DNA of 64,000 bases. It comes from Kaistella palustris DSM 21579. Lineage in GTDB: Bacteria > Bacteroidota > Bacteroidia > Flavobacteriales > Weeksellaceae. Below, one piece after another: positions 10,967 through 25,292 of this stretch (positions are counted from its first letter, which is position 1; each line of letters opens with the position of its first letter). The notes beneath the pieces are model-generated. The model did not search any database, was not told the origin of the DNA, and was given only the letters and a program-made list of their open reading frames with translations. The stretch spans positions 1 through 64,000 of the forward strand of contig NZ_KE383812.1 of the NCBI RefSeq assembly GCF_000422265.1, given 5' to 3'. The translations under genes and the position numbers were made by a program.

Positions 10967-11557
10967 TTACTTTTGATTCCGATTCATTAACACTTCCTCG
11001 ATCTCGGTCAGCGAAAACGATTTTGCTTTCAACAGGATCAAAAGGTGGTAGAGCAAATCCGCGGCTTCATTTTTAAATAAGTCAGCGTTATCATCTTTCG
11101 CTTCAATCACCAATTCTACAGCTTCCTCTCCTACTTTCTGCGCCATTTTATTGATACCTCTTTGATACAAATCATAAGTATAAGAATTGGTGACTTTTTG
11201 ATCAATTCTTTCCGAAATGGTTTCTTCTAATTCATATAAAAAGCCTTTCGCTTTTTTTTCTTCAAAACAACCGAAACTTCCGGTGTGACAAACATTTCCG
11301 GCAGGTTTCACCTGAATTAATAAAGCATCTGAATCGCAATCTTGTTTGATGCTTTTTACGTATAGATAATTTTCAGAGGTTTCGCCTTTCAACCAAATTC
11401 TGTTTTTGGTACGGCTGAAGAAATGAACGCGTCCGTCTTTCTGCGTTAATTCCAACGCTTCTTTGTTCGTATAACCCAACATCAAAACCTGCTGCGTGCG
11501 ATCGTCCTGAATAATTACAGGAACTAAACCGTTTCCTTTTTCAAAATCTAATTTCAT
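10967..11557 (-). CDS. hisIE: Bifunctional phosphoribosyl-AMP cyclohydrolase / phosphoribosyl-ATP pyrophosphatase
   Basis: It catalyses steps 2 and 3 of histidine synthesis. From the ATG at 11557 (MKLDFEKGNGLVPVIIQD) the protein has about 196 residues. The HisI domain (about 1-110) shows the Zn/Mg residues in DCDSDALL and NVCHTGSFGCF. The HisE domain (about 115-196) contains ETISERI, GEEAVELVIEAK and NEAADLLYHLLILL. Twelve extra in-frame codons upstream (to 11593) have no homology, so the internal ATG is preferred. It is the last gene of the his operon, 88 bp after hisF. Confidence 0.96.
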   Translation of the reverse strand: MKLDFEKGNGLVPVIIQDDRTQQVLMLGYTNKEALELTQKDGRVHFFSRTKNRIWLKGETSENYLYVKSIKQDCDSDALLIQVKPAGNVCHTGSFGCFEEKKAKGFLYELEETISERIDQKVTNSYTYDLYQRGINKMAQKVGEEAVELVIEAKDDNADLFKNEAADLLYHLLILLKAKSFSLTEIEEVLMNRNQK

Positions 11558-17445: not shown

Positions 17446-18303
17446 TTACAAAACCATTTTTTCAATTGGAATCACCAAGATACCTTCTGCACCAAACTTT
17501 TTTAACTCATCGATAATTTTCCAGAATTCATTCTCCCGAACAACAGAGTGAATACTACTCCATCCAGATTCTGCTAAAGGTAAAACGGTTGGAGATTTCA
17601 TGCCGGGTAAAATTTCAATTATTTTTTCAATGGAATCATTCGGAGCATTAAGCAAAATGTATTTATTTTCACGGGAATTAATAACTGCCTGAATTCGGAA
17701 AAGGAAAGATTCAAGAATTATTGAAATATCATCAGGAAGATTTTTGCTGCAAATTAAAACAGCCTCACTTTTTAAAACTTGCTCCACTTCTTTCAATCCA
17801 TTATGCAATAAAGTACTTCCGGAACTCACCAAATCGGCGATCGTATCTGCTAAACCGATACTTGGCGCAATTTCCACACTTCCGGAAATTTCAACGATTT
17901 CGGCATTGATATTATTTTTATCGAAATAATTTTTAACAATGGAAGGATAAGAAGTTGCTATTTTTTTCTGATCAAAAAAAGTCAAGTCGGTATACTCTTG
18001 ATCTTTTGGAATTGCTAATGATAATCTGCAATTTGCAAAACCTAATTTTTTAATCAAGTCAACATTTTTTTTCTGTTCCAGAACTTCGTTTTCTCCGATA
18101 ATCCCAATATCTACAATTCCCTGTTCCACATATTTTGGAATATCATCATCGCGAAGAAAGAGAATTTCTAAAGGAAAATTGGTAGCAGAATTTTTCAGTT
18201 TGCTTTTAAAATCAGGAATTTTAATTCCACATTCCTGCAAAAGCTCTAAAGATTTCTCGCTTAAGCGTCCGCTTTTTTGGAGGGCAATTTTTAATTTGTT
18301 CAC
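17446..18303 (-). CDS. hisG: ATP phosphoribosyltransferase, long form
   Basis: HisG starts histidine synthesis by joining ATP and PRPP and is the usual feedback target. From the GTG at 18303 (NKLKIALQKSGRLSEKSLE) it has 285 residues, the length of the long, self-sufficient form with a C-terminal ACT-like regulatory domain (about 210-285, around SPTVLPLAESGWSSIHSV). Catalytic-domain features are VDIGIIGENEVLEQ and the PRPP loop DTIADLVSSGSTL. A GTG at 18351 is also in frame, but it sits immediately after the attenuator's T-run and adds 16 non-conserved residues, so it is rejected. Confidence 0.95.
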   Translation of the reverse strand: MNKLKIALQKSGRLSEKSLELLQECGIKIPDFKSKLKNSATNFPLEILFLRDDDIPKYVEQGIVDIGIIGENEVLEQKKNVDLIKKLGFANCRLSLAIPKDQEYTDLTFFDQKKIATSYPSIVKNYFDKNNINAEIVEISGSVEIAPSIGLADTIADLVSSGSTLLHNGLKEVEQVLKSEAVLICSKNLPDDISIILESFLFRIQAVINSRENKYILLNAPNDSIEKIIEILPGMKSPTVLPLAESGWSSIHSVVRENEFWKIIDELKKFGAEGILVIPIEKMVL

Positions 18304-18321
18304 GTTCAATTTTGAGATTGG

Positions 18322-18332
18322 GTCTGAACAAA
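18322..18332 (-). promoter_or_regulatory. Sequence complementary to the his attenuator loop
   Basis: The transcript of this segment (UUUGUUCAGAC) is the exact 11-base complement of GUCUGAACAAA in the attenuator's 5' arm and loop (18363-18373). Pairing the two would be incompatible with the terminator hairpin. It lies about 20 bases before the hisG start. Confidence 0.45.
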
Positions 18333-18349
18333 TGCTGTTATTTTCACAC

Positions 18350-18378
18350 AAAAAAAACCGTCTTTGTTCAGACGGTTT
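18350..18378 (-). terminator. Histidine operon attenuator (terminator hairpin)
   Basis: On the minus strand AAACCGTC-TGAACAAA-GACGGTTT is followed by a run of eight T. It lies 46 bases after the leader peptide stop and about 47 bases before hisG. A segment just after the leader stop (AAAGACG) can pair with CGTCT of the 5' arm, which would form a competing antiterminator when the ribosome stalls on the His codons. Confidence 0.88.
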
Positions 18379-18423
18379 AATTTTATTTTATTCACTTAAT
18401 GCCATAAATATATCAACTCGTCT

Positions 18424-18468
18424 TTAGATGAGATGATGATGATGGAATAAAGCGGTTGTATTTTTCAT
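18424..18468 (-). CDS. hisL: Histidine operon leader peptide
   Basis: A 14-codon ORF encodes MKNTTALFHHHHLI, with four consecutive CAT His codons. It begins about 16 bases after the -7 box and stops before the attenuator hairpin. Such a run is the classical sensor of histidyl-tRNA: when His is scarce the ribosome stalls on these codons and termination is avoided. The gene symbol is by analogy with enterobacterial hisL; sequence similarity outside the His run is not expected. Confidence 0.88.
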   Translation of the reverse strand: MKNTTALFHHHHLI

Positions 18469-18483
18469 GTTGTTTTAACTCTG

Positions 18484-18515
18484 CAAATATAACTGATAAA
18501 AAATTTAACGTGCAA
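18484..18515 (-). promoter_or_regulatory. Promoter of the his operon
   Basis: Minus strand TTG (18515-18513), 21-base spacer, TATATTTG (18491-18484). Both boxes fit the Bacteroidetes housekeeping consensus. The leader peptide ATG is at 18468. Confidence 0.75.
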
Positions 18516-25136: not shown

Positions 25137-25292
25137 AACCTTTTTCAACCTCCAAAATATAAAGTAAATTTTGTCAGCAGTAAAGAAAAACCGCCTGAAC
25201 TTGTAGCCCAGATTGAAACGGCATCCTTTTTTGAGGAGGAACGACGAAAAAAAGATATAGTGGAAAGCTGGACTGATTTCGCAAAGAAGTGA
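25137..25292 (+). pseudogene. Possible gene remnant, C-terminal fragment
   Basis: The frame is open from after a TAG (25134-25136) to TGA at 25292 but contains no start codon. The translation is protein-like and charged: VNFVSSKEKPPELVAQIETA, then FFEEERRKKDIVESWTDFAK. A short ATG ORF in another frame just upstream (25130) ends where this one becomes interesting. I read it as the decayed tail of a lost gene; its identity is unknown. Confidence 0.35.

Follow-up and report, generated by a model that had tools for sequence, protein, structure and literature searches.

How a flavobacterium adjusts its histidine operon to the supply of histidine is the question raised by the locus described here, and it takes an unusual form, since a short stretch located between the terminator and the first gene of the operon has two alternative predicted pairing partners, the terminator itself and the start codon region of that gene. 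The locus lies on the minus strand of the window, by which we mean the whole analysed stretch of 64,000 nucleotides from contig NZ_KE383812.1 of Kaistella palustris DSM 21579. In this window, hisG is the first gene of a complete his operon, which has the order hisG, hisD, hisC, hisB (bifunctional), hisH, hisA, hisF, hisIE and extends to position 10967. The nearest named relatives of the window hisG are from Kaistella species. The features of the upstream region are listed in Table 1, where the RNA segments are numbered from 1 to 6, and a pairing between two of them is written in the form 3:4.

Table 1. Features of the hisG upstream region in the window, with the kind of evidence for each
Feature	Position	Strand	Evidence
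Promoter-like element, TTG (18515-18513) and TATATTTG (18491-18484)	18484..18515	-	sequence
Leader peptide ORF MKNTTALFHHHHLI, 14 codons, TAA stop; putative ribosome sensor	18424..18468	-	sequence
Segment 1, third His codon through Ile codon; predicted partner of segment 2	18427..18437	-	fold
Segment 2, AGACGAGTTGAT; predicted partner of segment 1 or of the terminator 5' arm (2:3 antiterminator)	18412..18423	-	fold
Terminator hairpin, AAACCGTCT / GAACAA / AGACGGTTT	18355..18378	-	fold; 3:4 covariation
Segment 3, 5' arm of the terminator	18378-18370	-	
Terminator loop	18369-18364	-	
Segment 4, 3' arm of the terminator	18363-18355	-	
T8 of the intrinsic terminator	18350..18357	-	sequence; hairpin runs into T8
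Inner arm of segment 3 plus loop, GTCTGAACAAA; predicted partner of segment 5	18363..18373	-	comparison, shuffles
Segment 5, ATTTGTTCAGAC; predicted partner of segment 3 or of the hisG start codon region	18322..18333	-	comparison, shuffles
Segment 6, TGAACAAAT; predicted partner of segment 5	18294..18302	-	comparison, shuffles
hisG, GTG start (18303-18301)	17446..18303	-	NCBIfam name hisG

A promoter, a leader peptide with four His codons, a terminator with eight T and then hisG had been listed in the first-pass annotation of this DNA, and all of these elements are present on the minus strand, the promoter in the form of promoter-like sites. The pair formed by TTG and TATATTTG presumably corresponds to the -33/-7 promoter type of Bacteroidota. 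The fold of the 181-nt leader has a z-score of -2.83 and was equalled or beaten by one of 200 shuffles. A scan of the window against Rfam gave no family match at gathering score for the hisG leader, the best leader-type match being Phe_leader with 28.4 bits against a cut-off of 55, and no T-box was among the Rfam matches for the window. Elsewhere in the window, there are two Flavo-1 RNA motifs (RF01705, 62 bits each), at 1353-1437 on the minus strand and 25201-25278 on the plus strand; no clear role for such motifs was found in PMC9723704.

Ribosome-mediated attenuation at the window hisG is strongly supported by comparative sequence analysis, as the run of His codons is conserved, the terminator is conserved with compensatory changes, and the antiterminator arm is located at the leader stop codon. 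The first-pass annotation had suggested that the His codons and the terminator stem should be sought in close relatives. Among 36 genomes of the same genus, 27 have hisG and nine do not, and all 27 of the former carry a His-run leader of the form HHHH, HHYH or HHHYH; the terminator stem is kept in relatives as well, with compensatory changes seen as 3:4 covariation. A hisG match is missing from 51 of 148 genomes of the family, as it is from the nine genomes of the genus, and thus prototrophy for histidine seems to be gained and lost within the family.

On a broader scale, we collected 268 hisG upstream regions (251 distinct ones), a subset of the hisG genes found, from genomes at the levels of genus, family, order and class, together with contigs of named genomes. 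An ATG-initiated leader with at least three His within seven codons was present in 225 of the 251 distinct regions and in 12 of 1255 controls obtained by shuffling dinucleotide blocks; for at least four His within seven codons the respective numbers were 200 and none. Automatic detection found a leader together with a strong terminator in 200 of the 251 regions, and we infer that the his attenuator is old in Bacteroidota. The hisG terminators come in two styles, one with the core CCGTCTGAGTAAA or a similar sequence at some 40-75 nt upstream of hisG, and the other of the GGCTTACC type, mostly nearer to hisG. In representatives of the second style (e.g. loci L042, L050, L226 and L258), a GGCTTACC/GGTAAGCC-like terminator is shortly followed by hisG, and there is no segment 5.

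Folding of nascent RNAs agrees with classical attenuation, as came out when the comparison with and without a leader ribosome, proposed in the first-pass annotation, was extended to 115 genomes of the CCGTCTGAGTAAA style, including the window. These RNAs ended before the 3' arm of the terminator, and for the stalled state a ribosome was placed on the second His codon and all RNA as far as its leading edge was kept single-stranded. The 5' arm of the terminator was predicted to be paired upstream (P > 0.5) in 115 of 115 genomes with a stalled ribosome, in one with the ribosome at the stop codon, and in 17 without a ribosome, its antiterminator partner being located near the leader stop codon. 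The particular 2:3 pairing named previously, of AGACG (18423-18419, in segment 2) with the complementary CGTCT (18374-18370), can form and lies near the leader stop, but this complementarity is no better than chance in the window (p 0.25); taken as plain complementarity, 2:3 does better than shuffles (p <= 0.02) in just 60 of the 115 genomes. Equilibrium folding with the whole terminator was dropped as a test of the switch, as 3:4 dominated in every ribosome state: its mean probability was 0.89 with a stalled ribosome and 0.94 with the ribosome at the stop codon, and stalling lowered it by more than 0.3 in 5 of 115 genomes. The switch states were therefore examined on truncated RNA or with chosen segments kept single, and the choice between the structures must fall during transcription, as in all models of this kind. 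Sequence and folding thus support the ribosome-mediated attenuation of the first-pass annotation, but that reading was incomplete, since it had missed segment 5 and its predicted pairing with the start codon.

Segment 5 of the window, ATTTGTTCAGAC, sits between the terminator and hisG and has segments 3 and 6 as alternative partners; the sequence TGAACAAA is common to the terminator loop and the hisG start site. None of 5000 shuffles paired as well as the window 3:5, and 9 of 5000 paired as well as its 5:6. For the comparison, terminators were chosen by their arm motif, blind to segment 5, which gave 135 of the 251 distinct regions, and 3:5 exceeded the 99th percentile of shuffles in 115 of these; it is absent in the other 20 with the same arm motif. 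At least 11 more upstream regions outside the 135 have the element and were missed by the arm pattern. The mean 3:5 score was 24.0, compared with 17.8 when the post-terminator stretch was taken from a genome whose loop differs, and 12.1 for shuffled sequences. Over 11 nt in the 115 genomes, the 3:5 pairs comprised 1122 Watson-Crick, 100 G-U, 3 A-C and 40 other combinations, and in 58 distinct combinations the Watson-Crick share was 86.4%, versus 69.9% (sd 1.2) when whole partners were dealt anew. Segment 5 lies at a median of 18 nt from the start codon (middle half 16-20, range 12-34). An H-type pseudoknot between the terminator loop and segment 5 was set aside, as the pairing enters the 5' arm (positions 0-2); in many genomes it extends into the 3' arm too.

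The other partner, segment 6, runs from the second base of the hisG start codon through codons 2 and 3 to the first base of codon 4. In 104 of the 115 genomes, the 5:6 duplex covers the TG of the start codon with at least 6 nt, forming a predicted start-region hairpin, and in the remaining 11 it does not lie across the TG over 6 nt. The pairs over 8 nt were 759 Watson-Crick, 35 G-U, 5 A-C and 33 others, and the excess of G-U over A-C, here as in 3:5, points to pairing in the sense RNA rather than in DNA. Among 81 distinct combinations, 5:6 was above the 95th percentile of shuffles in 74 and above the 99th in 56. The hisG start sites ATGAACAAA, ATGAGTAAA, ATGAGTACA, ATGAGTTCA and ATGAATAAA each have a matching segment 5. 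A start-hiding segment at p <= 0.05 was detected in 87 of the 115 hisG loci with 3:5, and in 3 of the 20 with the arm motif and without 3:5, one of the three being L200, whose 3:5 score is right at the cut-off. The same threshold gave 22 of 114 other hisG loci, at least 11 of which are members missed by the arm pattern, and 2 of 29 trpE, 5 of 30 pheA and 2 of 23 ilvD loci. The start-hiding loci among these other hisG (13 of 114 at p <= 0.01) did not hold up as a separate group: a rerun with new shuffles gave 12 rows, of which 11 are the same element outside the arm pattern and one, L179, differs. In genus g24 (L085, L087, L096, L099 and L103), hisG begins with ATGAATCTGAAA or ATGAAACTGAAA; the pairing of segment 5 is here with codons 2-4 in a different register (ATCTGA:TCAGAT, AACTGA:TCAGTT), which is perhaps a re-invention of start hiding.

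As the genomes are related, none of the covariation and constraint numbers given in this paragraph amounts to a probability. The separate-constraint test used 109 of the 115 genomes, six with an extra T in the arm being left out. At the three arm positions that lie beyond the start-site copy, segment 5 can pair with segment 3 in 311 of 327 cells and with segment 6 in 39 of 327. Conversely placed is a loop position that carries T in 60 genomes, where the corresponding bases of segment 5 and hisG are G with C in 17, A with T in 25, A with C in 7, and other combinations in 11. Each pairing appears to be kept where the other cannot form, and on this comparative evidence both look selected. Covariation of 3:5 and of 5:6 is seen across genera. 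Alignment A1 comprises 47 of the 81 distinct combinations, chosen by hand, the rows left out including those with the weakest or shifted 5:6; in it the covariation scores were 0.344 for 3:5, 0.309 for 5:6 and 0.351 for 3:4, each reached by none of 500 shuffles, and slid versions scored at most 0.152. Pairs changed on both sides numbered five for 3:5, five for 5:6 and three for 3:4, counts that were equalled or exceeded in 160, 44 and 306 of 500 shuffles, respectively, so that the both-side counts of 3:5 and 3:4 are not above shuffles and that of 5:6 is barely so. On a tree of 51 HisG proteins, 10 of the 46 changes reconstructed at eight core positions were joint changes of segment 5 with segment 3, segment 6 or both, and the other 36 were not joint.

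The element appears to be tied to hisG. A covariance model of 3:4 plus 5:6, run with stricter filters on 246 genomes of the order, gave 75 matches of at least 46.6 bits, of which 74 end on a hisG start, and at 48 bits or above this holds for 73 of 73; seven matches of 40-47 bits that were inspected proved to be ordinary terminator hairpins without hisG. Members with 3:5 occur in four families of the order (f1, f3, f7 and f15), in other orders of the class (e.g. L201, L248 and L251, and also L039 and L041, two MAGs of Saprospiraceae), and in G729, a single genome from a different class of the phylum. As an attenuator control, 60 genomes of the order provided 29 trpE, 30 pheA and 23 ilvD loci, and a leader with a terminator was found in 18, 17 and 4 of them, respectively. 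A segment-5-like match at p <= 0.02 was seen in none of the 18 trpE, none of the 4 ilvD and two of the 17 pheA cases (both weak). In three trpE, two pheA and one ilvD cases the hairpin used in this control is located 5' of the leader, and many pheA cases have fewer than 15 nt after the terminator and hence no room for segment 5. The idea that segment 5 is a general feature of attenuators was rejected on these 60 genomes. Attenuators of trp genes with WW or WWW leaders in the same order (L271, L275, L277, L292-L297 and others) have the classical layout and no segment 5; one of them is the trpE attenuator of the window's own genome (L292, G000:C3), with the leader MNSRTNNTWWWHSNFFKV. Among the pheA loci (L310-L328), many of the 30 combine a leader rich in Phe/Tyr codons with a terminator that shortly precedes pheA.

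The reading that we favour, and regard as fairly probable, is that a ribosome-mediated attenuator for histidine is combined with a translational lock as a second layer, the leader ribosome setting both termination and the exposure of the hisG start. Comparison and folding support the leader, the 2:3 pairing of nascent RNA when the ribosome is stalled, and the helices 3:4, 3:5 and 5:6 with their predicted ranking, whereas we infer from them that the switch operates in cells, in what order the events occur and which way translation is affected. When histidine is ample, the ribosome would reach the leader stop codon, segment 2 would be covered or paired with segment 1, the 3:4 terminator would form, and most transcripts would end. 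In transcripts that arise by leaky read-through, segment 3 would be held in 3:4, leaving segment 5 to pair with the hisG start region (5:6), and translation would be blocked. When histidine is short, the ribosome would stall at the His codons, segment 2 would pair with segment 3, and RNA polymerase would read on. Segment 5, transcribed ahead of segment 6, would then meet the free terminator loop and capture segment 3 (3:5), so that the hisG start stays open. In this way, the terminator loop would serve as a working copy of the hisG start site.

With moderate confidence, we describe this arrangement as double control by one leader ribosome, in which the loop is an evolved copy of the start site that competes for segment 5, three mutually exclusive helices link termination to start exposure, and the whole, confined to hisG within the searches made, extends to at least four families, to further orders and to a second class. 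Such a scheme would suit ribosomes that work without Shine-Dalgarno pairing. Flavobacterium johnsoniae, a member of the same phylum, is described in the available part of PMC6847099 as lacking Shine-Dalgarno sequences and as tuning initiation by structure at the start, which makes start-codon hiding plausible as a means of control. Attenuation of amino acid operons is the textbook example of control at the level of transcription alone, and here it is apparently coupled to start-codon exposure. If true, this would account for the silencing of leaky read-through and possibly provide a tight switch for the genetics of Bacteroidota.

The two states of this switch are supported by folding to different degrees. 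The median predicted energies were -15.6 for 3:4, -11.8 for 3:5 and -7.7 for 5:6, and each step of the ranking 3:4 > 3:5 > 5:6 in predicted stability holds in 109 of the 115 genomes. With 3:4 enforced, the median P(5:6) was 0.99, and the OFF state, with a terminator and a hidden start, is thus well supported by the folding model, whereas equilibrium folding supports the ON state less. When segment 4 was kept single, P(3:5) was 0.84 in the window and on average 0.39 over the genomes, with a mean of 0.52 for 5:6; the mean unpaired probability of the start codon rose from 0.36 to 0.41, the start codon becoming more open by more than 0.2 in 14 of the 115 genomes and less open in two. For RNA whose 3' end lies upstream of segment 6, and in which the ribosome was stalled and segment 4 kept unpaired, P(3:5) exceeded 0.5 in 97 of 115 genomes. 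In the full RNA with segment 6 under the same constraints, the equilibrium P(3:5) was on average 0.09 and exceeded 0.5 in 11 of 115, a low value that results from the ability of 2:3 and 5:6 to coexist. The ON state would therefore need folding during transcription, a kinetic trap or another kinetic preference.

That the start codon is predicted to open so little in most genomes at equilibrium is what one would expect if the locus were a purely classical his attenuator that controls transcription only, with segment 5 either functionless or contributing in a static way, such as by setting basal translation or mRNA stability. The leader, antiterminator and terminator are enough for attenuation, and the GGCTTACC-type hisG attenuators of the phylum, as well as the trp, phe and ilv attenuators, manage without segment 5. 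We nevertheless consider such an account unlikely, though it is the most serious of the alternatives, as each of the two different partners of segment 5 constrains it separately, and as 3:5 and 5:6 tend to co-occur, start hiding being far more frequent among the loci with 3:5 than among those with the same arm motif and without it (87 of 115 against 3 of 20, as given above).

The terminator loop, complementary as it is to the message ahead of hisG, could also act in trans, with the terminated leader RNA binding, via this loop, to segment 5 of the read-through hisG mRNA. Action on other mRNAs has been attributed to attenuator RNAs such as rnTrpL, and the terminated leader RNA should be abundant when histidine is ample. 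Such action seems improbable here: with 3:4 more stable than 3:5 in 109 of 115 genomes, the terminated hairpin would need to be opened; each read-through mRNA carries its own copy of the loop in cis; and binding to segment 5 would free the start codon at ample histidine, which is the wrong direction. The least probable reading, which we give hardly any weight, is that the arms, being inverted repeats near the operon start, form a DNA operator for a regulator protein and not an RNA structure, since a DNA repeat would give G-U and A-C alike, in place of the 100 against 3 in 3:5 and the 35 against 5 in 5:6, and since the spacing and sequence of the arms vary while their complementarity is kept.

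The double control favoured here shares parts with several known systems. The enterobacterial his attenuator (hisL) has the same type of leader with a His run and the same mutually exclusive antiterminator and terminator in front of hisG. The window differs from hisL in having its antiterminator arm at the leader stop codon and in matching no Rfam family at gathering score; the enterobacterial His_leader is Rfam family RF00514. In the his operon of E. coli K-12, neither 3:5 nor 5:6 was found. As for the phylum itself, the abstract of Vitreschak et al. 2004 reportedly names attenuators in Bacteroidetes/Chlorobi. The available part of PMC9723704 gives clues from transcriptome data for leader-peptide attenuation of flavobacterial amino acid operons, and describes, for Flavobacterium psychrophilum and other Flavobacteriaceae genera, a conserved structured element that lies 5' to hisG and has no Rfam hit. 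The remark in the first-pass annotation that this mechanism is much less documented in flavobacteria is therefore right only in part. By its description, the F. psychrophilum element is probably of the same kind as that of the window, and relative to what the available part of that paper (PMC9723704) contains, a mechanism, the pairing scheme, the hiding of the start codon and segment 5 are proposed only here.

A leader ribosome that affects both the end of transcription and the access to a downstream start is known from Salmonella speF, which differs in using Rho and a long-range helix over the ribosome-binding site, according to the available part of PMC6386406, whereas in the window the loop of an intrinsic terminator mimics the start region. 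The vmlR gene of Bacillus subtilis likewise reportedly has one leader ribosome acting on transcription end and start access, but it serves antibiotic resistance, while here the target is a biosynthetic gene in a phylum without Shine-Dalgarno sequences. Attenuators of the erm type hide the Shine-Dalgarno sequence, unlike the present element, which would conceal the start codon along with codons 2-4 and whose switching arm is common to an intrinsic terminator. In these translational attenuators, stalling in the leader frees the hidden start region by alternative pairing; one of them, ermC, is named in PMC10314930. A terminator loop that imitates the start region of the downstream gene was found in none of the literature matches listed, a set with most subscription journals outside its scope. 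Within this partly available literature, the new part would be the translational layer on a his attenuator, as leader-dependent control of transcription plus translation is already known from speF and vmlR.

Finally, locus L053 belongs to a record labelled Spirochaetales, and its hisG is 52% identical to that of the window and is preceded by a His-run leader and a terminator; this locus was possibly transferred, or the record is possibly mislabelled.
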